From: a virus
Reading direction: 5' to 3' (one strand)
DNA: 64,000 nucleotides
Virus record (IMG/VR): IMGVR_UViG_3300005537_000023
Coordinates: 1 to 64,000 of that record
Shown: positions 12,344 to 43,917 of the stretch, piece by piece
Numbering within the stretch: position 1 is the first letter of the stretch
How the letters are laid out: every line of letters begins with the position of its first letter
Program-made: the position numbers and the translations under genes
The notes under the pieces: generated by a model
Database searches by the model: none
What the model was told of the DNA's origin: nothing
The model's input: the letters and a program-made list of their open reading frames with translations, nothing else

Positions 12344-13027
12344 ATGCCCGATCCCGCCGTCGCCCCCGTGGTCGAAACGCCCGCCCCTGCCCCGGCCAAC
12401 GGCAAGGCGCCGGCGCCGGCCAAGCCCTCCCTCGCGGACGTGCTCCGTGGGCTCAGTCCGGCCGATGTCGAGGAAGCGAAGAAGGTTTTCGCCGATCTCG
12501 TCGGCGGCGCGGTTCCGAAAGCGGAAGCCAAGCCCGAGGAAAAGAAACCCGAGGCGGATCCGCACCCGATGCCCGACGGCCTCGTGGCACTGCCCACGAA
12601 ATCCTTCCAGTGGACGCCCGATTGCTGGCGCGGCGACACGTACGCGATCAACGGCGAGACGCACTACCGCCCGATCCTCCACGGCGTCTACCTCGCCGCC
12701 GACACTCGCCCCGCCGTCCCCGCGCTCATCTTTGCGTTGTGGGAGCCGCTGCGGGTGATGGATCGGCGCGGCAAGATCGTTGAAGCGGCGCCCGATGGAA
12801 GCGTGGTGCTCGTGGACGCAACGCCCTCGCTCCTCACATTGCTGGACACGGACGTCAGCCAGGGATGCCCTCACGTCGCCGTCCGCCCGACTCGATCCAC
12901 CGTCTCCACGAGCGGCGCCGAGGTGTGGTTTTTCGACGTGCAAGTGGAGCCCGATCGCCGCAATCCGCAGTTGCCGAAGCTCTACACGCGGGAAAGCGCC
13001 CTCGGAAAGCGAGGGGTGAAGCGATGA
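12344..13027 (+). CDS. First gene of particle operon, 227 aa, unknown
   Basis: AGGAG precedes ATG 12344. Residues 1-75 are Pro/Ala/Lys-rich and disordered (APAPANGKAPAPAKP). Residues 90-210 look globular with mixed strands (YAINGETHYRPILHGVYLAAD). No membrane span. Its position right behind the palindromic operator suggests early expression within the particle set. Not recognised. Confidence 0.6.
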   Translation: MPDPAVAPVVETPAPAPANGKAPAPAKPSLADVLRGLSPADVEEAKKVFADLVGGAVPKAEAKPEEKKPEADPHPMPDGLVALPTKSFQWTPDCWRGDTYAINGETHYRPILHGVYLAADTRPAVPALIFALWEPLRVMDRRGKIVEAAPDGSVVLVDATPSLLTLLDTDVSQGCPHVAVRPTRSTVSTSGAEVWFFDVQVEPDRRNPQLPKLYTRESALGKRGVKR

Positions 13028-13215
13028 CGGACGCACCGAAGCAGCGCCGCGGATTCGCCGTCATGTCGCCGGAGAAGCAGGCGGAGATCGCGAGCAAGGG
13101 CGGCAAGGCGGCGCACGCGAAGGGCACCGCGCACGAGTTCTCATCCGAGGAGGCGCGCGAGGCCGGACGCAAAGGCGGGATGGCGGCGCGGGCGAAACGG
13201 GGAGCGGCGTCGTGA
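13024..13215 (+). CDS. KGG-motif small protein, 63 aa
   Basis: Two copies of the KGG stress-protein motif are visible: EIASKGGKAAHAKG and EAGRKGGMAARAKRG, each preceded by an acidic helix. Short KGG proteins (con-10/YciG-like) are basic, disordered and often DNA-associated. Finding one coupled to virion-type genes is unusual and could point to a packaged DNA-binding protein. Overlaps both neighbours by four bases. Confidence 0.7.
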   Translation: MTDAPKQRRGFAVMSPEKQAEIASKGGKAAHAKGTAHEFSSEEAREAGRKGGMAARAKRGAAS

Positions 13216-13949
13216 TCCCTCACGGCCTCTACCTTCTCACCTTCATCGCCGCTGCCGTCGTCGCGGCTCTCGTCAGCACCGCCCGATTCCTCAGACGCGG
13301 CGCGGTGGTGCCGTGGGCAAGCGTGCAACTCCCAAGCAAGCCATTCGAGGGACGGCCGATTCCGTTGGGCGCTGGGCCGTGCAAGATCCCAGGGAGATCG
13401 GGGCCAGACGTCCAGTCGCTAGAGCGTCGAGATGGATGCAACGCCATCACCCTGCTCCCAGTTGAGGCCTTCGTCCTGACTGAGATCGGCTTGTACTGTG
13501 ACAAGCCCAATCGCCTGCACGTCACCAGCGTGAAGATCGGGCGAATGGAGTTGATCGAGAGCGGCGCCATCGTGGCGGACGCTTTCGGCAAAGGCGGGCC
13601 TTCCACGAAGATCGCCGCCGGTGCCACCATCTATCCCACCACTGGCATCCGCTTCACCTTCACGAATCCAGACGTCGATCCGGTTGACGTGTCGCCCATG
13701 GTCATGGGCAAGCCAGTGGCATGCCCAATCAGTTCGCCCGGCCTCACCATCGCCGATGACATCGTTGCGATGGCGGGCACGGCTTTGGTGGCTGCGTACG
13801 CGCTTCACTCGCCGGGGCACATCCTCTTTGCCGCCGCCGGCCTCACCGCTGGCCTCGCCCTCGTGCGCGCCGTGGACTTCGCGCGGAAGGCCGTGAATTA
13901 CAGCCGTTCGCTGGTGGCCAACTGGCGAGCGAGGAAGAAGAAGGCATGA
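13212..13949 (+). CDS. Membrane-anchored paralogue of the 15642 beta protein, 245 aa
   Basis: GTG 13212 overlaps the previous stop. Residues 5-30 form a hydrophobic segment (LYLLTFIAAAVVAALV). Residues 45-175 align closely to the protein at 15642: RPIPLGAGP, TLLPVEAFV, IGRMELIE and GATIYPTTGIRFTFTNP recur in order. Residues 180-220 form a second hydrophobic hairpin, ending in a basic tail. So the same beta domain exists in soluble and membrane-flanked versions. I infer a vertex or membrane-attachment protein of the particle. Confidence 0.7.
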   Translation: MIPHGLYLLTFIAAAVVAALVSTARFLRRGAVVPWASVQLPSKPFEGRPIPLGAGPCKIPGRSGPDVQSLERRDGCNAITLLPVEAFVLTEIGLYCDKPNRLHVTSVKIGRMELIESGAIVADAFGKGGPSTKIAAGATIYPTTGIRFTFTNPDVDPVDVSPMVMGKPVACPISSPGLTIADDIVAMAGTALVAAYALHSPGHILFAAAGLTAGLALVRAVDFARKAVNYSRSLVANWRARKKKA

Positions 13950-15011: not shown

Positions 15012-15584
15012 ATGTACTCGCTCGCCAGCCTCAACGCCGCTCGCCGCCATCGTCGTCATCACCGCCATCATCACCGCCACAACCGGGCGGAGGCGATGAG
15101 TGGATCGAAGCGCGATCAGTTGGCGTACTTCGCCGGTCAGAAGGGCGTTGGAGGCGCGGTCTCTGGCCTCCTCGGCTACATGGACTCGTACAACGGCGAG
15201 CCCACCTTCTTCGCGACGGCGGGTGATCCCACGAGCGGCGTCGGCCTCAAGGCGATGGTCGCGATCGCGGGCAACCTCGCGCAGGCCTTCCAAATCTGGA
15301 CAGGCCGCTTCATGGGCAAGTCCATGGGCGCGCTCGGCAACGTGATCGACGGCGCGATCGCCGGTACCGCGGACGCGGGCTGGTTCTCGTGGACGTACGT
15401 GCAGGGCAACACCTACGGCGCCGCGAAGAAGGCGTCAGAGTCGCCGCCGCACAAGACGAGCGGTGTCGGCTTCAACTACGACGGCGCCCCCGAGCCTCGC
15501 GCGATGGGCGTCGGCACTCCTCGCGATCACGTCTCGCGCGCTGCGGCTGCGGTGCAGTCGAGCGGACTCGCCGGTTACATCTAG
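15012..15584 (+). CDS. Particle protein with His/Arg-rich N-terminus, 190 aa
   Basis: GAGGAGA lies upstream of ATG 15012. Residues 10-30 are an extreme run of Arg and His (RRHRRHHRHHHRH), then a Gly/Ala-rich core with amphipathic or membrane-leaning helices (GGAVSGLLGYM, VGLKAMVAIAGNLAQAF, GAIAGTADAGWF). Basic headed, small-residue helices fit a nucleic-acid or membrane contacting virion protein. Directly precedes the strongest capsid candidate. Confidence 0.6.
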   Translation: MYSLASLNAARRHRRHHRHHHRHNRAEAMSGSKRDQLAYFAGQKGVGGAVSGLLGYMDSYNGEPTFFATAGDPTSGVGLKAMVAIAGNLAQAFQIWTGRFMGKSMGALGNVIDGAIAGTADAGWFSWTYVQGNTYGAAKKASESPPHKTSGVGFNYDGAPEPRAMGVGTPRDHVSRAAAAVQSSGLAGYI

Positions 15585-15641: not shown

Positions 15642-16226
15642 ATGATGTCCTTTGGTCGCCGCAATCCCGCTACCGTCGCCGGTACCCCCTACGCTCGCAC
15701 GGGCAACGTTGCCGTCCGCGGCGCCTTCGCTCCTCGCTCCGGCGCGGTTGTGGGCTACACGCCCCGTCCGCGTGGCGCGGGAGTCGGCGCGTGCGGCGAT
15801 GGCAGCACGAATCCGCCCGGCGGCACGCAGGCGTGGTGCTACAACACGCAGGGCAGCCGCCCGATCCCCCTCGGCGCTGGCCCCGTCGCGATCCCGGCGT
15901 TCGCCGCGGGTGCGAGCGGTACCAACAACGTGACGTTGCTTCCGGTCGAAGCGTTCGTCATCGAAGACATCGAGGTGACGGACCCGACGGGCCTGCTCTT
16001 CGTGTCGAGCGTCCAGATCGGCCGCATGCAGTTGCTCGAAGGCGGCACGATCTCGACCGACTACTTCCAGTCGGCGTCGACGAAGTGCAAGTTGGCGCAG
16101 GGCGCGACGATCTACCCGACCACGGGCATCGTCTTCACCTTCACCAACCCGACCAACGCGATCGTCAACGTCTCCGTGGTCGTCACCGGAACGCCGGTGC
16201 CGTGCCCGCAGGGCGGCTTGAAGTGA
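15642..16226 (+). CDS. Candidate capsid beta protein, 194 aa
   Basis: AGGAG is spaced well before ATG 15642. After a basic 50-residue arm (FGRRNPATVAG ... YTPRPRG), the core alternates strands: RPIPLGAGPVAIP, NVTLLPVEAFVIEDIEV, FVSSVQIGRMQLLEGG, and ATIYPTTGIVFTFTN, VNVSVVVTGTPV. A basic arm plus an eight-strand-like beta core is the plan of small jelly-roll capsid proteins. The protein at 13212 carries the same core between membrane helices. Capsid role is inferred; a decoration protein is the main alternative. Confidence 0.6.
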   Translation: MMSFGRRNPATVAGTPYARTGNVAVRGAFAPRSGAVVGYTPRPRGAGVGACGDGSTNPPGGTQAWCYNTQGSRPIPLGAGPVAIPAFAAGASGTNNVTLLPVEAFVIEDIEVTDPTGLLFVSSVQIGRMQLLEGGTISTDYFQSASTKCKLAQGATIYPTTGIVFTFTNPTNAIVNVSVVVTGTPVPCPQGGLK

Positions 16227-16613: not shown

Positions 16614-17636
16614 GTGGCGTACGAGCCTACTTTCGCGATCGACTGTATCGGAAGGGATCCTGGCGCCATGGGCAAAGTGGCGCTTGGAAGGCTCGCGGCC
16701 GCTCTCGTGGACATCAACGCGGAGTACATCCGGACCTACCCCGGAAGCTTCGCGAGTGTCTATGAGAGCGGCTTCGTCATTGGCGAACCGCTTGGCCGTG
16801 GCGGCCTGTGCGGCGATCGCCGCTGGCAAGACGTCGCCGTGATGAGGGATTCCGGCATCGTCAAGCCGGACGATCTCGTGATGGCGCGCGTCGCCGAGTT
16901 GAACGAGGTGGAGAAAATCGCCGCCAAGGTGCGGGTGTACTCGAACGATGACGGCCTATACGAGTTGCTGGTGGAGTGGCCTGCAACGCTTCCCGTCGGT
17001 GCCGTATACCCCGAGAGCGTCTACCCGCACCCGATCGACGGCGCCCTCGTCGAGTCCCCGTCGGAAGCGATGGGCTCGCGCGAAAAGGCGTCTTTCGTCG
17101 CGCCCAAGCGCCCGTATCGGCTGACGATCGCCGTCGACTGCATCGGCGAGGATCATCCCGAGGCCGTGCGGATGGCCGTGGATCACTGCATGGGATACCT
17201 GCTGCACGCGCTGACGGACATCGACGAGATGTACCTCCGCGCCTTCCCGGACAAATTCCAGCTGCTGTACCAGTCGTGTGTTGTCTATGATCGCATGAAT
17301 CCGCCCGCTGGCAGCGCGTGCGGCGACGACGACTGGCAAGACATCGTTGTCACCTACGAGAGTTGCAAAGGCGACTGCGAAGACGTGGCGTGCATTCGCG
17401 CCGCGGAGGTCAATGTCCACTACAGCATCCCCGTTGTGCCCATGGTGATGCTGCAACAGAATCTTCAACCTGGCGCGCGCACTCGTCACCTCTACCACGT
17501 GATGGACAAGTGGCCCGATGGCCTTGGCAACTACCCACCAAGCGTCTTCGCAGATCAGACGGATCAGGGTATGATGATGATGGAGTGCCCCTCAACGGTG
17601 TTGGGCATGACCGGAGATGAAGAGGCCGCGCAATGA
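16614..17636 (+). CDS. Duplicated papain/transglutaminase-like protein, 340 aa
   Basis: Two homologous halves of about 165 residues. Each begins with a strand ending DCIG, then a long helix, then CGDxxWQD. The second half has GDCEDVACIRAAE with Cys255 and YHVMDKW with His295, then ECPSTVLGM, the Cys-His order of transglutaminase/papain-like phage proteins. In the first half the matching positions are Pro85 and Glu117, so that domain has lost both catalytic residues. Likely particle-associated peptidase or cross-linking enzyme with one structural copy. Starts at GTG 16614 after GGGAGG. Confidence 0.7.
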   Translation: MAYEPTFAIDCIGRDPGAMGKVALGRLAAALVDINAEYIRTYPGSFASVYESGFVIGEPLGRGGLCGDRRWQDVAVMRDSGIVKPDDLVMARVAELNEVEKIAAKVRVYSNDDGLYELLVEWPATLPVGAVYPESVYPHPIDGALVESPSEAMGSREKASFVAPKRPYRLTIAVDCIGEDHPEAVRMAVDHCMGYLLHALTDIDEMYLRAFPDKFQLLYQSCVVYDRMNPPAGSACGDDDWQDIVVTYESCKGDCEDVACIRAAEVNVHYSIPVVPMVMLQQNLQPGARTRHLYHVMDKWPDGLGNYPPSVFADQTDQGMMMMECPSTVLGMTGDEEAAQ

Positions 17637-18229
17637 CGCTCTGCCCGCTTGCAATCGGAATCGGCGCTGTACTCGGAGGCGTCGCCACGGCGTGGTGGTT
17701 CATGTCCGACAAGGGCAAGGGCTCGACGACGGCGCCGCTCGGCACCCCGTCCAAGCTCGCCGGCCATCTCGTCCCCGCGATCGCCGGCACCTCGCCCGCG
17801 CCGCCGCTCCTTGCCCCTACCGCCGGCCTCGCGTCGATGGACGGCTTCTCGTGGGACTATCAGGTTGGCCCCGGCGATTCCGTGGGAGGCATCACGGAGG
17901 CAATCGTTGGCGACGACGGCCGATACCAGGAATTGCTCCTCGCAAACCCCGCTCTTCTGACGGTGGGCGAGCCTGGCGTATACCTCGGCGAAAGCGCGTG
18001 GGATGCGGCGCCCGGCGCGCTCGACGGGCAGACGCTCGCGATCCCGCTTCCGTGGGGCCGCTACATCGATCAATTGGGCAACCCCCGCGGCGGCCGCGAG
18101 CCCTTCATCCAGGACGCGCGAGCGCCGATGACGCTGCCCGCTCTTCCGCCCGCGCCGCCGGCCGCGTCCACGTCAGGATTCGGCCCCGCGCCGTACGGTG
18201 AAATGGTTTCGATGGAGGCCGCAGCATGA
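17633..18229 (+). CDS. Membrane-anchored LysM-like protein, 198 aa
   Basis: Residues 5-24 are a membrane helix (LAIGIGAVLGGVATAWWFM). Residues 74-140 resemble LysM: WDYQVGPGDSVGGITEAIVGDDGRYQELLLANP, then LDGQTLAIPLPW. LysM binds peptidoglycan, so this may orient the particle or its lysis enzymes on the wall. The C-terminus is proline-rich. ATGA overlaps both neighbours. Confidence 0.65.
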   Translation: MTLCPLAIGIGAVLGGVATAWWFMSDKGKGSTTAPLGTPSKLAGHLVPAIAGTSPAPPLLAPTAGLASMDGFSWDYQVGPGDSVGGITEAIVGDDGRYQELLLANPALLTVGEPGVYLGESAWDAAPGALDGQTLAIPLPWGRYIDQLGNPRGGREPFIQDARAPMTLPALPPAPPAASTSGFGPAPYGEMVSMEAAA

Positions 18230-19562: not shown

Positions 19563-20243
19563 GTGCCGTCTCCCGCCGCACGACTGAACCACCTCGGCGG
19601 AGGTGCGCAGAGCAATCTCGGCCCGAAGGCTGAGAGGCAGTTCATTGCGCGCGTGTGTCAGTCGCGCTGCCGTGACGAGTCGTACGGCCTCGTGTGCAGC
19701 GTCAACGTCAAGCTCAGTGGCAGCGTTGCGGACGTGGCCGCAAACGACATCTCATCGGCCTTCCTCGAAGTGGACTTTGGTGGCGGCGACTCCGACGAGT
19801 CGGCGTTCGCCATGGACTTGATCAACGGAACCTCGTTCCCCGCCATCGGCGGGTGCAACGTCTTCCTCAACTATCCGAAGACGGATGCGACGCAGCCCAA
19901 CATTGACGTCAGCGTGTCCGTTGGGAAGTATGAGGTTGGCGCGCAAGCCGCACTCGGCTGCCGACGCACGATCAAGGCGCGCACCGTCAACGGGACGAGC
20001 GCGATCCTGCCCATCCCCAAGTTCGCCGTCCAAGCCGTCTACGCCAACACAGCAATCGGCGTCGCTGCGGCGCAATTCGATCAACTCCGCGCGCCTGTCG
20101 TCGGCGCCGCCATCCTTTCCACACTCAACCTCGGAAAGACGCAGGCCACTAGCGTCCCGATTATCAACGGCGCGCGCGGATTCCAACTCACCGTTGCCAA
20201 CTCCACCGGCGATGCCGTCATCTTCAACCTGAGCCCCGCCTAA
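19563..20243 (+). CDS. Tandem capsid-candidate protein A, 226 aa
   Basis: GGGAGG precedes GTG 19563. The product is beta-rich throughout and paralogous to the next gene along its whole length. Shared blocks include QSNLGPKAERQFI, GLVCSVNVK, FGGGDSD, SFPAI, NVFLNYP, VGAQAALGCRRTIK, LPIPKFAVQA and VPIINGARGF. Long beta proteins in tandem, in the middle of the particle module with strong ribosome sites, are good candidates for the main coat. No membrane span. Two related major capsid proteins occur in some non-tailed membrane phages, which is the comparison I have in mind. Confidence 0.6.
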   Translation: MPSPAARLNHLGGGAQSNLGPKAERQFIARVCQSRCRDESYGLVCSVNVKLSGSVADVAANDISSAFLEVDFGGGDSDESAFAMDLINGTSFPAIGGCNVFLNYPKTDATQPNIDVSVSVGKYEVGAQAALGCRRTIKARTVNGTSAILPIPKFAVQAVYANTAIGVAAAQFDQLRAPVVGAAILSTLNLGKTQATSVPIINGARGFQLTVANSTGDAVIFNLSPA

Positions 20244-20977
20244 TGCCCCCCGCGATCTCCCGAGTCAACCACCGCGGCGGTGCTGCCCAGTCGAACCTTG
20301 GGCCGAAGGCGGAGCGTCAATTCATCGGCCGCGTCTGCACGTCCAACAGCGACACCGGGGCGGCCAACTACGAGTCCATTGGCCTCGTCTGCTCCGTCAA
20401 CGTCAAGCCCAGCACGGGCCTCACTGGCTTCGTGGACGCGGCCAACGTGGACATCTCGGACGCCTTCCTCACGATCGAATTCGGCGGCGGTGACAGCGAT
20501 CTGTCCGTCTTCGACATGGACTTGGTCGACGGGGTGAGTTTCCCTGCGATCGGCCAGATCAACGTCTTTCTCAACTACCCCATCCTCGTCCAGAATCCGC
20601 AGTCGCCGGTGGTCCAACCGCCGCTCGACATCTCGATCAGCGTGGGCAAGGGCTGCGTCGGTGCACAGGCGGCCCTCGGGTGCAGGCGGACGATCAAAGT
20701 GGGCGGACTCGGAAACAACGCCGCGAGCAACGTGCTGCCGATCCCCAAATTCGCCGTGCAGGCGATCTATGCGAACACGACGATCGGCGTCGCCACCGCG
20801 CAATTCGATCAAACCATCTCGACCGCAAACGGCTCCGCCGTCATCTCGACCATTTTGCTTGGGAAGACGCAGGCGTCGTGTGTCCCGATCATCAACGGGG
20901 CGCGCGGTTTCATCGTGACGTCCACGCAGGGCGCCACGACAGGAAATGCTATCATCTTCGAGTTGTCCCCCGCATAA
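20243..20977 (+). CDS. Tandem capsid-candidate protein B, 244 aa
   Basis: Starts in a TAATG overlap with protein A, so the two are translationally coupled and likely made in similar amounts. Aligns with A end to end, with small insertions near residues 32-45 and 105-120. Keeps the conserved cysteines in GLVCSVN and LGCRRTIK. I infer a heterodimeric or alternating coat, or a gene duplication that lets one copy diverge. Confidence 0.6.
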   Translation: MPPAISRVNHRGGAAQSNLGPKAERQFIGRVCTSNSDTGAANYESIGLVCSVNVKPSTGLTGFVDAANVDISDAFLTIEFGGGDSDLSVFDMDLVDGVSFPAIGQINVFLNYPILVQNPQSPVVQPPLDISISVGKGCVGAQAALGCRRTIKVGGLGNNAASNVLPIPKFAVQAIYANTTIGVATAQFDQTISTANGSAVISTILLGKTQASCVPIINGARGFIVTSTQGATTGNAIIFELSPA

Positions 20978-20991: not shown

Positions 20992-22101
20992 ATGGCCTTG
21001 TCTACTGGTGCAAAGATCGCGATCGGCGGAGCCGCGGCGCTCGCCGCGTACTTCCTGCTCGCCGGCACCTCCAAGGCCGCAACGGTGGATCCTCACGTTG
21101 CCGGCCAGTCAGCCGGCTGTGCGGACGGCAAGCGAGACGCACTCGCCGGCCAGGATCCCCTCGGCGCCGCCGACGTCACGGGATCGGCGACGATCACCGC
21201 GCAGGCCAACGCCAGCGGCGATCCCGTCGCGTACCTCGATGGGTACATGAGTGGCTACAACCAGTGCTACTCGGCCAACAAGCCAGCGGCGCCCGTTGGC
21301 CCGTCCAAGGGGCCGGCCGCGAAGAAGCCGACGGGGCCGAGTGCCCCGCCTGGTGCAGACAAGCCCGGCGCGATGGACGCGTATGGCAAGGGCTGCTTTC
21401 AGGGCGCGAAAGACGGCTACAACGACGGCCTCGGCGGCAACAGCAGTCGACCGCATCCGTCGGACTACGCCAGTGGCAACCCCACGGCATTCGCCGCCGG
21501 CTATCGTCGCGCGTACTCCACGGCGTACAGCAACGGGAACTTCGGCTATCAGGCCGCGATCGATGCCGGCTTCCCGCCGGATGAGGCCGCGTCCACCGCG
21601 CTCGGCGCTGCCGATCCGACGTACCCGGACACCGTGGCCTCGGGCTGCGATGGGTACTTCGACGGCTGGTGGAGCGCGACGACGGGCACCGGCGGCATCG
21701 AGGGCTTCTTCCAGAAGATTGAGGTGGGCGGGATCGCTCTCGTGGGCATGCGTCGTCCTCGCATGGTGGTGCAGCGACTGGCGCCGCAACCGCTTGGATC
21801 CACCGCATGCCGTAAGGGTGCCGCGGATGGATGGCGGTACGGGTGGGATCACGGCGACGCCAGCAGTATGGCCGGCACCGTTGGGAGCGATGACTACGCG
21901 CGCGCATTCAGGCTCGCGTCCAAGGAAGCCGCCAGCGTCGTTGCGAGCAACCCAATGCTTCCTGGCACCCCCCCGCCCATTCCGATGGACGTCCTGAATC
22001 GAGTGCTTGCTCAGTGCAGCACGCTCGGCACCGTCGCCCCTCATCCGCTCGGCTGGCCTGCGCCCCCGCCGGGATCGTCCCGCATCTACCGGAGCTATTG
22101 A
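20992..22101 (+). CDS. Membrane protein with Tyr/Gly/Asp repeats, 369 aa
   Basis: AAGGAG precedes ATG 20992. Residues 5-27 are a membrane helix (GAKIAIGGAAALAAYFLLAG). The outer part contains repeated units with a Gly-x-x-Asp-Gly-Tyr flavour: CADGKRDAL, YLDGYMSGYNQCY, CFQGAKDGYNDG, CDGYFDGWW, CRKGAADGWRYGWDHG. About six cysteines are regularly spaced, suggesting disulfide or metal cross-links. The protein at 31746 has related repeats. Likely an external or vertex component of the particle. Confidence 0.6.
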   Translation: MALSTGAKIAIGGAAALAAYFLLAGTSKAATVDPHVAGQSAGCADGKRDALAGQDPLGAADVTGSATITAQANASGDPVAYLDGYMSGYNQCYSANKPAAPVGPSKGPAAKKPTGPSAPPGADKPGAMDAYGKGCFQGAKDGYNDGLGGNSSRPHPSDYASGNPTAFAAGYRRAYSTAYSNGNFGYQAAIDAGFPPDEAASTALGAADPTYPDTVASGCDGYFDGWWSATTGTGGIEGFFQKIEVGGIALVGMRRPRMVVQRLAPQPLGSTACRKGAADGWRYGWDHGDASSMAGTVGSDDYARAFRLASKEAASVVASNPMLPGTPPPIPMDVLNRVLAQCSTLGTVAPHPLGWPAPPPGSSRIYRSY

Positions 22102-22766: not shown

Positions 22767-22972
22767 TGGGCTTCGTCACCGTTCGGCCGCGCCTATGTCT
22801 CACGCAGTCACCGCCGCCGGTGGTGAGGGTGGGAGACATGAGCTACGACAACACCAAGTCGCAGGTGCCGGCCGCGGGAGACTCCTCGTGGTGGATGCCG
22901 CTGGCTGCCGTAGGCCTGATCGGCGTCATCGTCCTCTTCGTCGTCTACGGCCACAAGTCAGGATGGACGTGA
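22763..22972 (+). CDS. Tagged single-helix membrane protein, 69 aa
   Basis: GTG 22763 overlaps the previous stop; ATG 22766 is the next codon. Tag: FVTVRPRLCLTQSPPPVVRVGDM. Residues 45-62 form one membrane helix (WMPLAAVGLIGVIVLFVVYG) with a short basic end. Typical size of small particle membrane proteins. Confidence 0.65.
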   Translation: MMGFVTVRPRLCLTQSPPPVVRVGDMSYDNTKSQVPAAGDSSWWMPLAAVGLIGVIVLFVVYGHKSGWT

Positions 22973-23256
22973 TGCAATTCCTATCCACGAGGCCTCGCCT
23001 GGCGATTGCGGCGCCGACGCCGCGCGCAACCGTTCGCGTCGGCGCAATGGATCCGGTGCTGGCGGTAGAAACCTTCTACAGCGATCAGTGGTCGCGGCGT
23101 ACCGTCGGCAGCTACGCACTGATCGGCGGCATCCTCGGCGGTGGAGCCATCGCTGGATACCTCCTCGGGGGTAGCGTGGGGTGGGCGATCGGTGGTGCCG
23201 CGATCACTGGCGTGGCCGTGCCGGCCGCGATTGTGTATCTCGGATCCGCGAAATGA
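22972..23256 (+). CDS. Tagged two-helix membrane protein, 94 aa
   Basis: Starts in a TGATG overlap. Tag: FLSTRPRLAIAAP, then VRVGAM. Residues 45-90 are two closely packed hydrophobic glycine-rich helices (YALIGGILGGGAIAGYLLGG, IGGAAITGVAVPAAIVYLG). Same plan as 31473 and 32884. Confidence 0.65.
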   Translation: MQFLSTRPRLAIAAPTPRATVRVGAMDPVLAVETFYSDQWSRRTVGSYALIGGILGGGAIAGYLLGGSVGWAIGGAAITGVAVPAAIVYLGSAK

Positions 23257-34158: not shown

Positions 34159-34239
34159 GGCAGGGACTAGAGAGGCGACGCGCCTACCCGCGTCGCCGTT
34201 TGCTTGTCAAGCGCGCTCGCTTGGGGCACTATGTGGGGC
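34159..34239. promoter_or_regulatory. Divergent promoter region sharing one -35 palindrome
   Basis: The palindrome GCTTGTCAAGC at 34202-34212 supplies TTGTCA on plus (34204-34209) and TTGACA on minus (34210-34205). On plus, a 17-bp spacer and CACTAT lead to GTG 34240, again 36 nt from the -35 box. On the minus side a strong hairpin, GGCGACGCG/CGCGTCGCC with a 6-nt loop (34174-34197), lies between promoter and start codon and could act as operator or attenuator. Confidence 0.55.
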
Positions 34240-35388
34240 GTGAACGACCCTGCCCGCCCCGGCAGTCCGCCGGCCCCGTTCGGCTTTCAACGTCCTGCCA
34301 TGGACAGGCCGGCGCCGCCGCCGCCGGATCTCCTCGCGTCGGCGCGCACGTGGAAGCGTGGCCGTATCTTCAACAGGGACGGCACGGGCAAGCTGTTGCC
34401 ATGGGTGGCGGTCGAGGTTCGAGATTGCGACAACGGCCTCACGATCCACCAAGTGGATGACCTCGGCGACCAAACGGACGCCGAAACGCTGGCCGGCGAA
34501 ATTTGGGGCCGAATCAACCAGTCCGTCAGGTCAAGGAACGACGGGATCAGCCATCATTACCTCGTCGAGTGCGTCTTTGCTGATCTAGAAGGTCGCGTCA
34601 CCAAACTATCGTGGGAAGGCAGTTTGATGCTTCCTGTCGAAAGTCAGGTTTGGGGATCTGGGCCAATGAGCCGACTCGGCCACGCCAGTTTCTTGGCAAA
34701 GCGCGATTTTCAGGAAGCGTCTCGCGAGCGCGATCGCATCGAGTTGATGGGCGTGGGCCTCGCCATGATGCAGTCGGCGCAAGGGGCCATGCTCACGATG
34801 CACCAGGAATCGCGCGCGGAGTTGGACTCGCTTCGCGGCGAGCGCGTGCAATTCCTCAACATGTGGAAGAGCATGATGGAGGACAAGCGCAAGCAGGATC
34901 GAGAGGACGCGTGGGACGAGAGGAAATTCGCGCTCCTCAACCAACTCGTGGGCCGCCTTGGACACCTCGCGGCGCCGCTCGGCATGTCCGTCACCAAGTG
35001 GCTTGGCCACAAGCTGGGCATGATTCAGCCGCGGACGCCGCGCGAGGAGAAGTCGTTCGCCACCCTCCGCCGCCTCGTGGAATGCGCGCAGGGCAAGATC
35101 AAAGAGAAGGCCGTTGCCGCTGGCCAGGCGATGGGCCTGTCGCTCGCGCAAGCCGTCGAGCAGTCCAAGATGATCGCGGACGATCCAGCCGCGTTGATGA
35201 ATGCGCTCGCGGACATGGGCGTGGCGGAGGACGATCCAGTCATTGACGATCTCATGGATCTCCTCATGGAGATGCGCATGGAGATGTCGAGCGAGAAGAG
35301 CGCGCGCCTCGCTGCACGCGAATCAATGTTGAATTCTGAGCCCACCGTCGAAACGCCGGCCCCCACGCCGGAGAAGGAGGATCCGTAA
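34240..35388 (+). CDS. Coiled-coil protein, 382 aa
   Basis: GTG 34240 chosen from the promoter geometry; ATG 34231 in the same frame is an alternative. Pro-rich head (NDPARPGSPPAPFGFQRP), a globular beta part (residues 40-140), then long helices (RDFQEASRERDRIELM; ERVQFLNMWKSMMEDKRKQ) and an acidic tail. No catalytic motif. The head PPAPFGFQRPA resembles that of the small membrane protein at 32516, hinting at shared sorting. Possible scaffold or internal particle protein. Confidence 0.55.
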   Translation: MNDPARPGSPPAPFGFQRPAMDRPAPPPPDLLASARTWKRGRIFNRDGTGKLLPWVAVEVRDCDNGLTIHQVDDLGDQTDAETLAGEIWGRINQSVRSRNDGISHHYLVECVFADLEGRVTKLSWEGSLMLPVESQVWGSGPMSRLGHASFLAKRDFQEASRERDRIELMGVGLAMMQSAQGAMLTMHQESRAELDSLRGERVQFLNMWKSMMEDKRKQDREDAWDERKFALLNQLVGRLGHLAAPLGMSVTKWLGHKLGMIQPRTPREEKSFATLRRLVECAQGKIKEKAVAAGQAMGLSLAQAVEQSKMIADDPAALMNALADMGVAEDDPVIDDLMDLLMEMRMEMSSEKSARLAARESMLNSEPTVETPAPTPEKEDP

Positions 35389-35895: not shown

Positions 35896-36330
35896 GTGGC
35901 CCACAAGCACCGCTGCATCCATCGCAAGCCCGCACGTCCGAAGCTGGAGACGTGGGATTCGGCGCGCGCAGCGATTGAAGCCAACACGGCCGCGATGGGC
36001 GGCTGGCTCATGGCGCAGGCGTACTACGCCAAGTCGTTCACGCCCGAGGCGCGCGCCAAGCTCCTCAAGATCGCGCAGGACGGCGTTGACCAACTGCCGG
36101 ACGTGTTGAAGCCGCTGGCGCGCGGCTTCCGCGATGGCCTGCTGGCTCAGCAGATGTACGCAATGGGCGAGAAGTTTGCAGCGCAGTCCAAGGCAAAGGG
36201 AAACGCCGGCGTACCGGCAAACGCGCCGCCTGCGTCCGGCCCCACACGGACGACGTACGCCGATGCAGCGCCGCACACTCAGGAAGACGATGGGCCGATG
36301 TTCGCGCCCATCGGAGGCAAGGACGAATGA
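35896..36330 (+). CDS. Hypothetical helical protein, 144 aa
   Basis: GTG 35896. Basic cysteine-containing head (HKHRCIHRKPARP), then helices (SARAAIEANTAAMGGWLMAQAYY; ARGFRDGLLAQQMYAMG) and a Pro/Ala-rich acidic tail. Overlaps the next gene by four bases. Not recognised. Confidence 0.55.
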   Translation: MAHKHRCIHRKPARPKLETWDSARAAIEANTAAMGGWLMAQAYYAKSFTPEARAKLLKIAQDGVDQLPDVLKPLARGFRDGLLAQQMYAMGEKFAAQSKAKGNAGVPANAPPASGPTRTTYADAAPHTQEDDGPMFAPIGGKDE

Positions 36331-37286
36331 GCCTCATCTCCACCGACGTCGCTTCCTCCACCCTCGGCGATGCCTCCACCACGGCAGACGTGGACGCAGC
36401 CGTCATGGAGATGACGAAGAACGGCGGCGTGCCGGACTACATCGCGAAGAACTTCTGGCGCTGGGTGGAGATCACCGGCGGCGGCCACACCCTTCGCTTC
36501 CTCGCCGCACCCACGTGCTACGCGATCGGAGATGAGGACGCTCCCTTCTTCTGCGCGCGCGGCACCCCCTACGGCGCGCAGGCGATCGCGGACTACTGGG
36601 ATTGCATCCTCCCGAGCCGCGTCCTCTTGCGCCACATCCAGGCGTCCAGCGATCCGTCGATCCGCTACATCGACGTCAAGGGCGCGCCGTACAACATCCC
36701 GCTTGCGAAGATCGAGACGCCAGCGGCAACGCAGGCGGCGAGCGATGCGGCCAACGCGAAGTTTGCGAGCCTCGGCGCCAACCCCGGCGATGGCCTGTCC
36801 GTCGGCTTCAAGAAATCGATCGTGGTTGGGCCGAATCTCGACGGCTCGCACGTGGCCATCTACGGCGGCATCGGCGGCGGCTACGATCCGCCGTGGAATG
36901 TTGTGCAGCCGTACAGCACGATCCACGGCAGTGCGTACGGCGACTACTCGCACGGCATCACGCTCGTCTCGCGCAAGTGCCAGTTGGATGGCAGCGACGC
37001 GGACCTACGCTTCGACGTCTTCGGCTCCACCGATCCGACCATCTACGGCCTCGTGACGGATCAGAGCCGCTTCGATCCCATCTTCCCCAACGCCGGCCCG
37101 GACTCGCGCGCTGAATTCAGCGGCGGAAGCGCCGCACCCTCGGGGCCGCGATCGCCTGGTGGCGGCTTCAAGCCGACGGGGCCGACGACGCATCCAGCCG
37201 CGCAGGCGAGCGGTGGACTTTCCATGCCGGCGAAGATCGGCATCGCTGCGGTGATTGGCGCCGCGGCGTGGTATGCGATTGGGTGA
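36327..37286 (+). CDS. C-terminally anchored virion-module protein, 319 aa
   Basis: Residues 45-235 are globular: RWVEITGGGHTLRFLAAPTCYAIG, AQAIADYWDCILPSRVLL, HVAIYGGIGGGYD and DYSHGITLVSRK. From memory, a group of bacterial and phage proteins has the same run (a GHxxxFxxxPDYxAIG head, IADxxxCxLPT, VAIYGWH, YVDYSHGIRLV). Their function is not known to me. The linker is Pro/Gly-rich and residues 300-317 form a membrane helix. His in DYSHGI and earlier Cys could be catalytic. Confidence 0.6.
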   Translation: MSLISTDVASSTLGDASTTADVDAAVMEMTKNGGVPDYIAKNFWRWVEITGGGHTLRFLAAPTCYAIGDEDAPFFCARGTPYGAQAIADYWDCILPSRVLLRHIQASSDPSIRYIDVKGAPYNIPLAKIETPAATQAASDAANAKFASLGANPGDGLSVGFKKSIVVGPNLDGSHVAIYGGIGGGYDPPWNVVQPYSTIHGSAYGDYSHGITLVSRKCQLDGSDADLRFDVFGSTDPTIYGLVTDQSRFDPIFPNAGPDSRAEFSGGSAAPSGPRSPGGGFKPTGPTTHPAAQASGGLSMPAKIGIAAVIGAAAWYAIG

Positions 37287-38178: not shown

Positions 38179-38399
38179 CCCCCCACGCCCTCGCCACCCT
38201 CTTCTGGCTCCTCGCCCTCGTCGCCTTCCTCGCGCACGGCTGGGGCCTTTCCGGCCTCGGCCCCATCCCCGGCGTTGCCCCCGATTGGGCGTATCGCGCG
38301 GGCGCGGCGGCCGGGTACCCGCTGGCGGTGGCGTTTGCGTGCGTGGCGATGGCGCTGCACGCGGTAGGATGGAAGCGTGGCCGCGCCGATTCCGCCTGA
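38175..38399 (+). CDS. Two-span membrane protein, 74 aa
   Basis: Hydrophobic segments at residues 4-22 (ALATLFWLLALVAFLAHGW) and 42-66 (AGAAAGYPLAVAFACVAMALHAVGW). Holin-sized; overlaps the start of the ATPase gene by 23 bases. Confidence 0.6.
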   Translation: MTPHALATLFWLLALVAFLAHGWGLSGLGPIPGVAPDWAYRAGAAAGYPLAVAFACVAMALHAVGWKRGRADSA

Positions 38400-39540
38400 G
38401 TACGACACCGACGACGCCGATCCCCTCGTGGACGCGCCCGCCCTCACAGCGCCCCCACCGCCGAAGTCCTACGAGTGCACCGCGTGCCTCCGCCGCGTTG
38501 CCGCGCGCGTCACCCGCTGTCCTTGCTGCAACCAGATCGCAACGTGGCAGCCGTCCGACGAGCCGCCCGAGGTGCGCAAATTCAAGCTCGCGCGCCCGGC
38601 GCCGCAACCGTCCTTTTTCGGCCGTGGCCTCTCCCACGTCCCCGCCGGCCTCGTGTCCGCGTGGATGTCGGGCGGCCCGAAGGTGGACGCACGCATCTCG
38701 CTGCCGGGCGCAGGGGCGAAAGAGGCCGAGAGGGAAGGGCCGGCGAAGGCGCGTCCGCGGCTGCTCGCCAACGTGGAGTACGAGAAGCGCGATCGATTCA
38801 CCACCGGCATCATCCCCGTGGACATCGCCTTCGGTGGCAAAGACGATCCGGGCATTCCCATCGGCGCCTCGTACATGCTCGCGAGTCCGCCCAACGCAGG
38901 GAAGTCCTCGATCGCCCTTCGCATCTGCGCCGCGATCGCCCAGCGCTACGGCGTGCCCGTCCTCTACGTCACCACGCCGGACGAGATGGGCGTAGACATG
39001 GTGGCCGAGTACGCGCGCGAAAGAGGCATCTGGCGCGAGTACCCATCGGCGGCGCGCTTCCTCCAGGTGGCGGTGGCCGAGACGGTGGAGGAGTCGATCG
39101 CGCTGGTCGACGAGGTGGATGCGCCCTTCTACGTCCTCGATTCCACCAACGGCGGGCTCACGACGAGCAACCCCACCGTCAGCGGGAGCAAGGATTCGAT
39201 CCTGCTCTACATCTCGAAGCTGCACGCGCACCGCTGCGGCAGGAAGATCGCGAAGTGGAAGGAAGCGCCGGGGCGCACCGGCCTCATCCTCGCGCACGGC
39301 ACGAAAGACGGGGACATGTCCGGGCCACTCGCCGCGCGCCACAACGTGGACGGTACCTTCCTGCTCGAATACTTCGACCCCGCGACGGGCTGGGCGCTGG
39401 AGCCGCGCGCGCGCAAGGAATGGGTGCGCCTGATCCAAGAGAAGTCGCGCGTATCCCCACCGCCGCCGCAAGGGCTTCTCCTCGCCTTCTACACGGACCA
39501 GAAGCGCGGCCCCGTGCCCGCGCAGCCATCCACCGAATGA
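38377..39540 (+). CDS. RadA/KaiC-like ATPase with zinc ribbon, 387 aa
   Basis: GTG 38377. Residues 34-51 are a zinc ribbon (YECTACLRR ... CPCCNQ), as in RadA. The RecA-like core starts near 140: TGIIPVDIAFGG, IGASYMLASPPNAGKSSIA with a relaxed P-loop (SPPNAGKS at 170-177), VPVLYVTTPDEMG, and APFYVLDSTNGG as Walker B. It ends in a Pro-rich tail. RadA-like proteins unwind or pump DNA in recombination. It is the only P-loop ATPase visible in the particle module, so a packaging role is a possibility beside DNA repair. Confidence 0.78.
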   Translation: MAAPIPPEYDTDDADPLVDAPALTAPPPPKSYECTACLRRVAARVTRCPCCNQIATWQPSDEPPEVRKFKLARPAPQPSFFGRGLSHVPAGLVSAWMSGGPKVDARISLPGAGAKEAEREGPAKARPRLLANVEYEKRDRFTTGIIPVDIAFGGKDDPGIPIGASYMLASPPNAGKSSIALRICAAIAQRYGVPVLYVTTPDEMGVDMVAEYARERGIWREYPSAARFLQVAVAETVEESIALVDEVDAPFYVLDSTNGGLTTSNPTVSGSKDSILLYISKLHAHRCGRKIAKWKEAPGRTGLILAHGTKDGDMSGPLAARHNVDGTFLLEYFDPATGWALEPRARKEWVRLIQEKSRVSPPPPQGLLLAFYTDQKRGPVPAQPSTE

Positions 39541-39649: not shown

Positions 39650-41647
39650 ATGGCGCTGGTGAATACGGCAAACAACCCCAACGGTGTCCTTGGCCTCGGC
39701 CAGTCCGCAGCGATGGATCAGTACGTCACCTTCGGCGGGCGTACGCTGCCGCCGGACGAAAACGCGATCCTCGCCTCGTTCAACTCGCTTACCGGCGTGG
39801 TGGCCACCGTTGCCCCGCTGCTCCCTCTCTCCCCCGCTGGCAACGACGGCGCCTCCATCACCGCCGCACTCCAGTCCGGCGACGTCGTCCTCCAGCAGGG
39901 CGCCACGTACAACATTCAGACGGCAATCAACCTCAATGGCCTGACGGATCGTACGCTCGATCTGAACGGCGCGAAGCTCGTCGGAAAGTTCAGCGGCGTC
40001 CTCACGGTGGCGAACTCCGTCATCTTCGGCCAGGCAGTCAACGCGGCGCTGGCCCCGACAACCTGCAACGGCACGCCCGTGGTCGGATCGAACCAGCTTG
40101 TTGTTACGCTTGCTGCTGGAATCGTTGCGGGCAACTCGATCAAGGTGGTTTCGGCCGCGTCCGCAAACCTCGTTGCTGTCTACCGAGTGACGTTGGTGGT
40201 GGCGAACACACTCACTCTCGACCGGCCGATCCTACTGCCGTTTGCGAACCTCGACGTTGTTACGCTCTTGCAGTCGGTCCCGACGAGGCTCGTCATCATC
40301 GGTCGCGGCGCGGTCATCACGGGCGACTCGTTCGCCGCGATCGACATCCTGCACGCATACCAGTGCTCGGTTGTAGGGCCGATCTATGCGGACGTCGAGG
40401 GTGGCCACGGCCCCCTGCGCGGCTTCGCACTCGACATCGGCTCGTTCTCGTCGTCAATGTCGCAGACCTACGTCGACGGATACGACCACTCGTCTAACAC
40501 GGACTTCCCGGACTTCGGCGTGGCGATGCTAGGTACCGAGCAGTGCTCGGTCATGGATAGCCGCGCCGGACACTGCAACGTGGCCGGCCTCATCTGCCTC
40601 GACGGCTACCAGTCGCGCATGTCCCGGTGCGACGGCTACTCGTGCAACACCGCGCTTGCGTCTGCGGCGGCGTTCGGCACGCAAGCTGTCGCGGCGACGA
40701 CGCAGGGGTGCGAGGACTGCGAGTTCGATTCGATCTCTGGAAGCCAGTCCGTCTTCGGCGTCGCGGTAACGAATGCGACGCGGTGCACGTGGCGCAACGT
40801 CAGATCGATCGGATGTACGACGAGAAACCTCGACGTTGGAGGCGGCGCTACGGCATGCATGGACTGTGTGTTCGATGGAGTGTCCGTCGGCATAGGGACC
40901 CCTACGACCGCGTCGATTCTCGTCAGCGCTACGGTCGTGAGGCCGTCGTTCTTCAACGTTCGTTTCAGCGGCGTCCTTGGCACGGCGGCATGCATGTCTC
41001 TAGGCTGTCCTGGCGCTCTGAGAGGACTGATTGCGATCTCTTCAAACACTACGACCGGCACCGTCCTAGTGACGTCTGGCGCCGCAGACGACGACACAGT
41101 CATCTCGGACGTCAGAATCACGCTGAAAGCGTCGGCAGCAAACACGATCGGTGTCAACGTTCAGAACAGCGCCGGAAGAGTTTTCATCAGAAACGCTCTG
41201 ATCGCACTCGGCGTAGCGAGCGACGTCGGTATCTTCCAGAACGGTATCTGCGTCGTGGAGATGGACGACGTGACCGTGTCGAATCCGAACGCCGTCGCGA
41301 CAACCGTGGGGTTCATCGCGAACGGCGCGACATCCGTCACGAGGCGCAAGGGCAGGATCAACATGTCCGCCACCGCTACTCCGTTCACGCTCGTGCAGTC
41401 GGACGTGGGAACGTTCACCACGAATGGCGCGGTGGCAGTAACGGTGCCGTTCAAGGATATCCCAGACGTCACCGGCGGAGGCGTGGCGCCGGTGAGTTTG
41501 ACGGGCGCCAAGGTGAATACGTGGATGATCGCGGCAGCTGGCACGCCCGCACCTGATCAGACGATCGTTATCACGCTCGCCACTGGGTTTACGTCCACCG
41601 GGAAGAACCTAGATACGTCCGTCCGCGGATACAAGGTTATGGACTGA
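39650..41647 (+). CDS. Spike protein with beta-helix, 665 aa
   Basis: GAGGAGAG precedes ATG 39650. N-terminal residues 22-60 (YVTFGGRTLPPDENAILASFNSL) are an anchor shared with the 41998 protein. Then GDVVLQQGATYNIQTAINLNG and TLDLNGAKLVGKF start a right-handed beta-helix with short repeating strands to about residue 540, and a separate C-terminal domain (KVNTWMIAAAGTPAPDQTIVITL). Typical of phage receptor-binding or depolymerase spikes; whether it has enzyme activity is not evident. Confidence 0.75.
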   Translation: MALVNTANNPNGVLGLGQSAAMDQYVTFGGRTLPPDENAILASFNSLTGVVATVAPLLPLSPAGNDGASITAALQSGDVVLQQGATYNIQTAINLNGLTDRTLDLNGAKLVGKFSGVLTVANSVIFGQAVNAALAPTTCNGTPVVGSNQLVVTLAAGIVAGNSIKVVSAASANLVAVYRVTLVVANTLTLDRPILLPFANLDVVTLLQSVPTRLVIIGRGAVITGDSFAAIDILHAYQCSVVGPIYADVEGGHGPLRGFALDIGSFSSSMSQTYVDGYDHSSNTDFPDFGVAMLGTEQCSVMDSRAGHCNVAGLICLDGYQSRMSRCDGYSCNTALASAAAFGTQAVAATTQGCEDCEFDSISGSQSVFGVAVTNATRCTWRNVRSIGCTTRNLDVGGGATACMDCVFDGVSVGIGTPTTASILVSATVVRPSFFNVRFSGVLGTAACMSLGCPGALRGLIAISSNTTTGTVLVTSGAADDDTVISDVRITLKASAANTIGVNVQNSAGRVFIRNALIALGVASDVGIFQNGICVVEMDDVTVSNPNAVATTVGFIANGATSVTRRKGRINMSATATPFTLVQSDVGTFTTNGAVAVTVPFKDIPDVTGGGVAPVSLTGAKVNTWMIAAAGTPAPDQTIVITLATGFTSTGKNLDTSVRGYKVMD

Positions 41648-41669
41648 GAGAGAAAACGCAGGCCGCAGC

Positions 41670-42008
41670 ATGTCTACCAAAACAGATCACGGAGATCACG
41701 AGCGAGGAACGTTCGTGCACCCTTGCGACAACAACTCGTACAGGTACCCGTCCAGCATCGAGTCCGAGCATCACGTTGGGTTTGACGGAAGGCCAATATA
41801 CTCCAAGGCTCAGAGAGGCGCGCTCAAGCTTGTGAGTGATCTACCAGTGACCTCGACAGATGACGAACACGTCCCGTCGTTCGTTGGCCATGAGAGACAT
41901 TACTATCTTGATACAACTGTATCAGTAAATGAGTCAGTCGTACACGCAGAACCTCTGACTGATGCGCAAGACGCGCAAGACGCAGAGAGTAAGAATGGCG
42001 CTGCGTAA
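41670..42008 (+). CDS. Hypothetical protein, 112 aa
   Basis: Clearly less GC-rich than the genes around it, with AT-rich codons. Acidic and polar, no motif (HPCDNNSYRYPSSIES). Its end overlaps the start of the next spike gene by 11 bases. Together they look like one recently acquired cassette. Possibly a spike chaperone, by position only. Confidence 0.6.
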   Translation: MSTKTDHGDHERGTFVHPCDNNSYRYPSSIESEHHVGFDGRPIYSKAQRGALKLVSDLPVTSTDDEHVPSFVGHERHYYLDTTVSVNESVVHAEPLTDAQDAQDAESKNGAA

Positions 42009-43917
42009 CAATGGAATTGACGCCAGCGGCGTGATAGGGCTCATATCTGTTGCGTCATTTGATGACTACCAAACGTCTGGTAGTAGGACTCTTCCTGGCG
42101 ATGAGTCGGCAATTGTAAAAACAATTGACAGCATTTCGTCAGTTCTAAATACGGTAGTTCCTGCATCTGGAGTCAGGACCATGTGGTTTGGTGACTCCAT
42201 CACCGGACTAGGAGGTACCGGAGCGGCCGTGTCCGCTAGGGACCAGTTCTGGACAGACTCTAGGTCTAGAGGTCTAGACGTTCGTGCGTTCGCTCGTACG
42301 TATCAGGGAACCGTCGGGGAGCCTCACCCATACGAGCCATGGTCGGACGGAAACAGCGGATACATGATCGAGGATCTCACCGCCCTCATGGGCGGTGCGC
42401 CAACCATCACCGCTCCGTCTCCTCTCACGAAGAACTTCATCGGCCTGAACGGCCAGCCGGACCTGATCGTACTCGGAGCAGGAACAAACAACATTGACAC
42501 GTCTGGCGATTCGGCCGCGACGTGCGAAACGAAGCTGACGACGCTGCTTGCGCAGATCACCGCGACGTGCCCGAACGCGCGCGTCATCGTCACGACGATC
42601 CCGAGTTTCTATTCGCCCGCGACGCCCTCCGGCGGGATCGCGGCGGCGAATGCGAGCGTCGCTGCGTACAACGCATGGATTCTCGCCAACGTCCCCGGAC
42701 TCAGCCCTCTCTATTCGGTAGTTGATCCTACGCCGCAATGGTCCAACGATACGGCGTACCCACCGGACGGGACACACCTCACGGAGGAGGGGGCGGCAGC
42801 CAGGGGCAGGTCCGTCACGGACGAGGCTGCCAGGCTATTCTCTGGCAGACGAGGCCCGGTATCCCCGAGGCCGTTCAAACCTCGCTCTCAGCAGGCATCC
42901 GTCCGGCTGCCGACCGCAGGCACTAGCAAGATACAGACGAATGCGCCGGATGCTGGATGGATTTTGCCCGCGGCAAGCTTCGCTGTCGGTGCGCGCATCC
43001 AGATACTCGGACTCAGTGCTGGGGTAGACAACTACGTTTTTTCGTCCTGTCCCGTCGGAGGCAACGGGCCGGCTAACGGGTTCTCAGTCACGATCGACGC
43101 GTCGGTAAGTCCGCCCAAGTGGACTATCTATCTGAAAGGTATCGCGGGCGCCGCTGCCTCGTTCGCTGCTCCAGTCGTGGCCGATCTTCCAATATGGCTG
43201 TCCTGGCACGTGGATGACGTAGCGCGCACGATCACTCTCTGGATCGCTATGCCGCACAGCCTGTCTGTCGCCGGCTCCGTGTACGTGTGCGCATGCGTTG
43301 GCGGCGCGACAGGGATAGCGGCGTTCTCACAAGGAGATCCTAACCCTCTCTTCAACATCGGCACAGACAGCACTGGCGTTCGTGGTGGCCCAGCCATGAT
43401 CGTGGACAACGTCTGGATGGCGAGCGGAAAGAACCTGCCAGGTGTTTTCTCTTTCCGGCCTGCGTTCGAGGCGTGGGTATACGACGGTACGGACATTCCA
43501 GGAGTGACTGCGTCTCTACACTGCGCGGAGGGTACAGGAGCCGTCGTCGCCAGCGGAAGCGGAGGCCAGTCAGCGACGATAGCCACTGGAGACTGGAGCG
43601 CTTCGGGTGAAGTGTCGTGGCCGAGCGACGAGAACGGGGATGCCACTCCTACCGCGTGGACTACGGTAGACATGAACGACGCTAATCAAGTCCTTCCGTC
43701 ATCTTCGTTCAACGCCACGACGATTGAGCTGACGGGTCCAATGACGGGGGACCACACGATTACTCTACCAAGAAGGAAGGGGAGGATCGTAACTCTAAAT
43801 AATAAGACGATCGGTGGACACAACACCCCAGGGATTGGACTTACTGGAGTAAGCGCCGGGGGCTCTCCTGGCATATCCAGGGTGTACTGGGACGGAGTGA
43901 ACTTCGTGCCTGCCTAA
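41998..43917 (+). CDS. Spike protein with SGNH/GDSL esterase domain, 639 aa
   Basis: Residues 25-57 share the anchor of the 39650 spike (RTLPGDESAIVKTIDSI). Then an SGNH hydrolase: TMWFGDSITG with Ser68, DLIVLGAGTNN as the N block, and DGTHLTEEG as the Asp-His block. The following 350 residues are beta-sandwich like, with a lectin-type look (PAWMASGKN region). It would deacetylate a host surface glycan. Codon use is AT-richer than the neighbours, as in the previous gene, suggesting transfer as a host-range cassette. Confidence 0.8.
   Translation, partial: ALRNNGIDASGVIGLISVASFDDYQTSGSRTLPGDESAIVKTIDSISSVLNTVVPASGVRTMWFGDSITGLGGTGAAVSARDQFWTDSRSRGLDVRAFARTYQGTVGEPHPYEPWSDGNSGYMIEDLTALMGGAPTITAPSPLTKNFIGLNGQPDLIVLGAGTNNIDTSGDSAATCETKLTTLLAQITATCPNARVIVTTIPSFYSPATPSGGIAAANASVAAYNAWILANVPGLSPLYSVVDPTPQWSNDTAYPPDGTHLTEEGAAARGRSVTDEAARLFSGRRGPVSPRPFKPRSQQASVRLPTAGTSKIQTNAPDAGWILPAASFAVGARIQILGLSAGVDNYVFSSCPVGGNGPANGFSVTIDASVSPPKWTIYLKGIAGAAASFAAPVVADLPIWLSWHVDDVARTITLWIAMPHSLSVAGSVYVCACVGGATGIAAFSQGDPNPLFNIGTDSTGVRGGPAMIVDNVWMASGKNLPGVFSFRPAFEAWVYDGTDIPGVTASLHCAEGTGAVVASGSGGQSATIATGDWSASGEVSWPSDENGDATPTAWTTVDMNDANQVLPSSSFNATTIELTGPMTGDHTITLPRRKGRIVTLNNKTIGGHNTPGIGLTGVSAGGSPGISRVYWDGVNFVPA

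Follow-up and report, generated by a model that had tools for sequence, protein, structure and literature searches.

A 73-kb circular phage genome with a probable tail-less particle module related to those of small circular viruses

Among the described viruses of prokaryotes, those with double-jelly-roll coats (the PM2, PRD1, STIV, FLiP, and Odin groups) possess genomes of roughly 7 to 18 kb, and in two of these groups, Odin and FLiP, a packaging ATPase is missing (Yutin et al. 2018, PMC5894146). We report here the analysis of a 64,000-nucleotide stretch of viral DNA, referred to as the window, that corresponds to bases 1 to 64000 of the 73,232-bp IMG/VR record IMGVR_UViG_3300005537_000023; the remaining 9.2 kb of the record was also retrieved. 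The study centers on a particle module at window positions 12344 to 43917 (+ strand), which comprises 54 densely packed predicted genes, almost all of them co-directional, and shares its gene order with a set of small circular viruses. With a probability of approximately 0.7, the record represents a complete circular temperate tail-less phage, in which the module is an enlarged form of the operon from which circular viruses of 13 to 24 kb build their particle. The module is read as a tail-less virion module because it recurs in small circular genomes that contain neither a terminase nor a recognizable packaging ATPase, and the phage seems to belong to an undescribed family of tail-less bacterial viruses, in which it would be by far the largest.

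The phage resembles the double-jelly-roll viruses in its apparent lack of a tail, its lysis enzymes, and its membrane proteins, but differs from them in genome size (73 kb versus 7 to 18 kb), in that a jelly-roll coat is established for them, and in that its module has no sequence match to isolated phages. The FtsK/HerA-type packaging ATPase of Varidnaviria (PRD1, PM2, and P23-77 types) is missing from the 73-kb genome, which also departs from the small circular genome with a rolling-circle Rep that characterizes the FLiP group (Finnlakeviridae), although the missing ATPase is a trait common to both. Since the Odin and FLiP groups share this absence, it is not unprecedented. With Caudoviricetes, the phage shares replication and regulation gene families, an integrase, and a repressor, whereas the terminase, portal, HK97 capsid, and tail genes of that group (Duplodnaviria) were not detected. 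Larger genome capacities are thought to require terminase-type or FtsK/HerA-type motors, and we know of no other tail-less phage of 73 kb without a packaging ATPase. If our reading is true, a 73-kb tail-less phage with neither type of motor would raise the size limit about fourfold and link the design of small rolling-circle viruses to that of a large temperate one, providing a test case for the evolution of capsid size and packaging.

Genome closure and search for tailed-phage hallmarks

The first 90 bases of the 73,232-bp record recur exactly at its end, and closure of the circle at this repeat makes the last gene's stop codon and the first gene's start codon overlap in ATGA. Given the exact terminal repeat and this gene overlap, the record very probably represents a complete circular genome of about 73.1 kb. 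Across the whole record, a simple codon-model gene caller identified 134 genes, the largest encoding a protein of 666 amino acids. The G+C content is even (0.60 to 0.68), and no tRNA gene was found in the 64-kb window.

Using hmmscan, we compared 85 proteins with Pfam and PHROGs and 48 small proteins with PHROGs, and among these proteins there was no match to a terminase, portal, prohead protease, sheath, tube, or HK97 family. In accordance, six-frame searches with TerL, portal, HK97, FtsK, and HerA models, for which controls were positive in 3 to 14 of 14 genomes, retrieved nothing from six complete records, namely, the whole 73-kb record and the five small viruses described below. The TerL family PF03354 was not found in the complete 73-kb record, and phrog_2 (TerL) was detected in none of the six records as compared with 13 of the 14 control genomes. 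FtsK (PF01580) and HerA (PF01935) were absent from all six and present in all 14 controls, and the HK97 capsid and portal families (PF05065, PF04860, and all PHROGs) were negative at the sequence level. These results bear out the first-pass annotation of the window, which had seen no terminase, portal, prohead protease, tape measure, sheath, or tube in the module. A terminase, portal, or HK97 capsid elsewhere in the genome had been named in advance as evidence against a non-tailed phage, and the search of the complete record was negative. The FtsK/HerA-type packaging ATPase that the same annotation had proposed to seek is absent from the complete record as well.

Matches to tailed-phage tails, also named beforehand as contrary evidence, were limited to weak "tail" PHROG matches that fall on the transglycosylase domain of the protein encoded at 27000 to 27692 and to one additional weak tape-measure match (E 8e-4) to a protein of fewer than 165 amino acids among the 48 small proteins. 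Beyond these lysozyme-domain and short-protein matches, no tail tube, tape measure, or baseplate was detected, and there is no long tape-measure-like gene. Furthermore, no protein of at least 400 amino acids in the 73-kb genome carries a terminase-type P-loop. In the module, gene 78 (38377 to 39540; all module genes named here lie on the + strand) is the only one with a convincing P-loop, and its product matches RecA/RadA. This protein was considered as a packaging ATPase; because its sequence is RadA/RecA-like, packaging is one possibility among others.

Relatives of the particle module

Queries with single proteins or protein pairs (genes 39/40, 29/33, and 73) revealed no relative in viral or genome contigs, two genome-contig scans gave no match, and neither did a DNA pattern search for the GDCED motif. 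The concatenated module, compared by tblastn with phage records, retrieved nothing except gene 73 in a huge metagenomic phage. Against plasmids, the concatenated query resulted in a match (E 3.8e-13) between the 210-kb Sandaracinus plasmid pSa001 and gene 35 (16614 to 17636), which encodes a two-domain protein with a GDCED motif, the signature protein of the family. The plasmid operon (L003:18183-26933; NZ_CP070226.1:122528-131278) contains positional counterparts of genes 32, 33, 35, and 68, of the transmembrane (TM)-peptidoglycan gene, and of the coat genes. The gene-35, gene-33, and coat families and the gene-68 counterpart are arranged in the same order as in the 73-kb genome, but the plasmid module covers only ~9 kb of the 210 kb of the plasmid, which also carries ParA and natural-product genes, and there is no spike or integrase gene in the cluster. 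Since this plasmid carries a related module, the host of the phage is perhaps a myxobacterium (Myxococcota). The proteins of the plasmid module are mostly annotated as hypothetical, and the plasmid, which belongs to a cultured myxobacterium, provides a laboratory route to the family.

Use of the gene-35 pair as a probe of IMG/VR led to five records of small circular viruses, namely, L008 (IMGVR_UViG_3300006163_000003; 17.5 kb), L009 (14.5 kb), L010 (14.9 kb), L011 (13.0 kb), and L012 (24.5 kb). All five have exact terminal repeats (70 to 127 bp) and are therefore very probably complete circular genomes. They contain the same operon, with homologues of gene 35, gene 33, and, in one of them, the lysin, and with positional counterparts of genes 32, 39/40, 41, and 68. 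Like the 73-kb genome, they lack FtsK/HerA and the hallmarks of tailed phages: no tailed-phage terminase, portal, or capsid family from Pfam or PHROGs was found, and their tail-family matches are consistent with lysozyme or esterase domains. In Pfam and PHROGs, no match was obtained for those shared structural proteins that were tested, and tblastn of the Sandaracinus and small-virus modules matched no record of the phage collection. The small viruses differ from the 73-kb genome in being three to five times smaller and in their Rep, which in the two tested has weak matches to rolling-circle (HUH-like) families; a profile search of the 134 proteins found no match to Rep in the 73-kb genome. 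The two relatives with this Rep have no tblastn match to phages.

To assess the strength of the link between the 73-kb genome and the small viruses, we screened all 134 proteins and shuffled decoys with profiles of the small-virus families. By its sequence, gene 35 is a clear homologue, with 56.8 bits (E 1.7e-17) in the search with the hidden Markov model (HMM) of its family versus a decoy maximum of 14. Genes 33 (15642 to 16226) and 29 (13212 to 13949) were the top two matches of the gene-33 family HMM, with 14.6 bits (E 1.9e-4) for gene 33 and 11.2 bits (E 2.1e-3) for gene 29 against a decoy maximum of 5.8, which provides moderate support for homology, and gene 49 matches the small-virus lysin G005 (E 4e-16). 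In a reverse rank test, the module proteins served as queries and 60 column-shuffled queries as the null. For genes 29/33, 35, 39/40, 41, and 68, the top six small-virus matches included several members of the positional-counterpart family, which none of the 60 shuffles equaled. The coat family contributed 3 of the top six for genes 39/40, and the counterpart families contributed 3 of six for gene 41 and 4 of six for gene 68. As the members of a family are related, each enrichment counts as one match, which is supportive but not proof. At this level, rank enrichment and gene order suggest that gene 41 (20992 to 22101), which has an N-terminal membrane helix, is the counterpart of the TM and peptidoglycan-binding protein, gene 68 (34231 to 35388) that of the coiled-coil protein located after the lysin, and genes 39/40 those of the coat proteins.

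The order of genes 33, 35, coat, lysin, and 68, all in one direction, agrees with that in the small viruses. Gene 41 is displaced, being located after the coat genes in the 73-kb genome and its presumed counterpart before them in the small viruses. For genes 32 and 36, the rank test did not support small-virus counterparts, and they are counterparts by position at best. In particular, gene 32 (15012 to 15584), which encodes a small Gly/Ala-rich protein, lies where the small-virus operon has its first gene, that of a TM protein, and a sequence test for a counterpart was negative. Gene 20 also matched the "VPGVGQ" family, possibly because of its Ala/Leu repeats, and these matches were not used. 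The operon by which members of the family are recognized, consisting of gene 33, gene 35, the TM/peptidoglycan gene, coat, lysin, and gene 68 and accompanied by no tailed-phage hallmarks, is present in the 73-kb genome. The gene-35 and gene-33 families have no match in Pfam or PHROGs and are handles for finding the rest of this virus family, which is overlooked by annotation pipelines that rely on tailed-phage hallmarks.

Candidate particle proteins and competing explanations

The first-pass annotation had singled out tandem coat candidates and a beta protein in soluble and membrane-flanked forms, and both observations were confirmed. Genes 39 (19563 to 20243) and 40 (20243 to 20977) are tandem paralogues with 65% identity, and the soluble protein of gene 33 is 46% identical to that of gene 29, in which the alignment shows the same beta domain flanked by an N-terminal helix and C-terminal hydrophobic segments. 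AlphaFold2 modeling of gene 40 from a two-sequence input failed (predicted local distance difference test [pLDDT], 34), and the model was not used. The L008 member of the gene-33 family was modeled from seven sequences of the family, among them genes 33 and 29, which gave a mean pLDDT of 75.9, a predicted template modeling score of 0.68, and eight strands of at least 3 residues. According to this model, the gene-33-type protein is a beta-sandwich, possibly a jelly roll. Foldseek of the model against solved structures, capsid proteins included, returned no significant match; the best matches (E 0.03 to 0.1; low template modeling scores) were mixed and included carbohydrate-binding beta-sandwiches. 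The closest predicted viral proteins were small and uncharacterized, several being from uncultured viruses (E 0.0016 to 0.007). A profile comparison of gene 33 with gene 18 (7072), made on the basis of a suspected strand similarity, did not support a relationship.

Hydropathy analysis predicted a membrane-type helix in 17 of the 54 module proteins versus 7 of 80 elsewhere (Fisher P = 0.001), where the first reading had counted about 15 proteins with one or two membrane helices; two of the 17 are spikes and are probably false calls. It is a reasonable inference from this enrichment that the particle contains a lipid membrane. Six module proteins, encoded at 22104, 22972, 23263, 29980, 31473, and 31746, share the N-terminal tag S-x-R-P-R...V-x-V-G-A. 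Among them are genes 42, 44, and 45 (22104 to 24696), with a membrane-type helix or hydrophobic stretch, and genes 60 and 61 (31473 to 32519), with a membrane-type helix. The pattern S-x-R-P-R ... V-x-V-G was expected in 0.12 proteins and reached a maximum of 3 in 1,000 shuffles, a comparison that is somewhat flattering, as the pattern was composed after viewing the proteins. It was not seen in the small relatives. The tag resembles a sorting or cleavage signal and may direct these proteins, most of them of the membrane type, into the particle.

We propose that genes 39/40 would make the shell, and that gene 33 and its membrane-anchored copy, gene 29, may occupy minor or vertex positions (gene 33 as a minor capsid or vertex protein) and tie the shell to a membrane carrying a dozen small helix proteins. 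Genes 79 and 80 would act as spikes, and genes 36, 41, 49, and 51 would bind and open the cell wall at entry and exit. Packaging would proceed without a terminase or FtsK/HerA motor, through assembly around the DNA, the RadA-like ATPase, or a host motor. At somewhat less than even odds, we envisage a lineage of 13 to 73 kb that is built on one particle operon, with a shell unlike or distant from known folds. The largest member of this lineage would package 73 kb without these motors, perhaps with the RadA-like ATPase, and would have taken over replication genes from tailed phages.

Several points weigh against the assignment as a large tail-less phage. The 73-kb genome and all small relatives are from metagenomes; the 73-kb record could be misassembled. 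The coat-family HMM misses genes 39/40 (E 0.99), which are linked to that family by rank and position, and a capsid fold is proven for no module protein. The largest known relative measures 24 kb, most of the 31-kb module is without counterpart, and the case for the membrane consists of helix predictions. It is unlikely that the genome is that of a tailed phage in which the terminase, portal, capsid, and tail proteins have diverged past the reach of profile libraries. The beta clamp, YqaJ nuclease, SNF2 helicase, methylases, integrase, and repressor are of families that tailed phages commonly carry, and Foldseek also places the gene-33 beta-sandwich near small tailed-phage proteins. However, such a phage would have to do without a large terminase-type P-loop protein and a gene of tape-measure size, a terminase search that succeeded in nearly all controls failed in all six relatives, and the same module is found in genomes of 13 to 17 kb.

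Equally improbable is a tail-less particle other than a shell with an internal membrane, for instance, one of spindle, vesicle-like, or rod shape. The shell fold is unproven, and large archaeal spindle viruses reach about 75 kb, but their coat proteins are small and helical, whereas tandem beta-rich coat candidates, a beta-sandwich, and spike genes correspond to the layout of a shell-forming virus. We regard as very improbable that the record is no independent virus but an integrative element or plasmid whose particle module was captured or is in decay, a description that may also apply to the Sandaracinus plasmid. The presence of the module in that plasmid and the integrase and IS1595-type transposase (L001:10220-11257) of the 73-kb genome favor this idea; against it, the genes for lysis, spikes, repressor, and replication are all intact and closely spaced, the terminal repeat indicates a circular record, and five more circular genomes are built on the same module. 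The large tail-less phage is the preferred reading. Of the original proposal of a large, undescribed, non-tailed membrane phage, the hallmark searches and the module in hallmark-free viruses of 13 to 24 kb uphold that the phage is large, non-tailed, and in no described family, but not its icosahedral shape, membrane, or jelly-roll coat. Known relatives had been expected to be far smaller, which is true for the family found here.

Further genes of the module and the genome

Some single Pfam and PHROG matches given below were tied to proteins by reading, since the search output listed families without naming the member. The module encodes several cell-wall-active proteins. The enzymatic part of the earlier claim of membrane-tethered lysins was upheld and the tether was not: the endolysin-type amidase of gene 51 (28303 to 28941; PHROG endolysin, E 7e-29) has no membrane helix, and the transglycosylase of gene 49 (27000 to 27692; PHROG), a putative cell-wall entry enzyme, has a short hydrophobic N-terminal stretch below the threshold. 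A CHAP domain was also detected among the module lysins. The product of gene 36 (17633 to 18229) combines an N-terminal membrane helix, according to hydropathy, with what reads as a LysM-like domain. Gene 73 (36327 to 37286) is proposed to encode an entry or lysis enzyme. Its homologue in a 485-kb metagenomic phage (L002:7887-8648; tblastn E 2e-6), the sole phage-record match among the particle-specific proteins tested, adjoins a lysozyme-like gene, and the DYSHG motif common to both suggests an enzyme.

Two genes at the end of the module encode spike candidates. Gene 79 (39650 to 41647) was selected as a spike or fiber candidate from its length, composition, and position, with no family match, and gene 80 (41962 to 43917) contains an SGNH/GDSL esterase domain (Pfam Lipase_GDSL_2, E 7.6e-12, assigned by reading). 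Gene 48 (25194 to 26996) encodes a putative metallopeptidase interrupted by an HNH intein (Pfam Intein_splicing; boundaries at about 25608 to 26705). Its extein, with the motif SHEVLETLIDP, shares 46% identity with a Streptomyces plasmid protein, and further relatives of it occur on Rhizobium, Caballeronia, and Paraburkholderia plasmids.

Outside the module, hmmscan identified an integrase, a beta clamp, a YqaJ nuclease, an SNF2 helicase, DNA methylases, and repressors. The tyrosine integrase of gene 92 (48415 to 49521, - strand; Pfam Phage_integrase, E 1.4e-18, assigned by reading) points to a temperate lifestyle, and gene 112 (59602 to 59799, + strand) encodes a repressor-like helix-turn-helix protein (PHROG repressor families, assigned by reading). 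Three minus-strand genes at window positions 8210 to 10488, which have no PHROG match, look by eye like accessory structural or fiber-region proteins. The SNF2-type helicase gene contains an in-frame low-complexity insertion of ~187 amino acids between helicase motifs (window positions 62585 to 63146), and Gly-Asp-rich tandem repeats (TSTSGDGG and GDGGGYG) are present in genes at 57876 to 58610 and 60518 to 61054.

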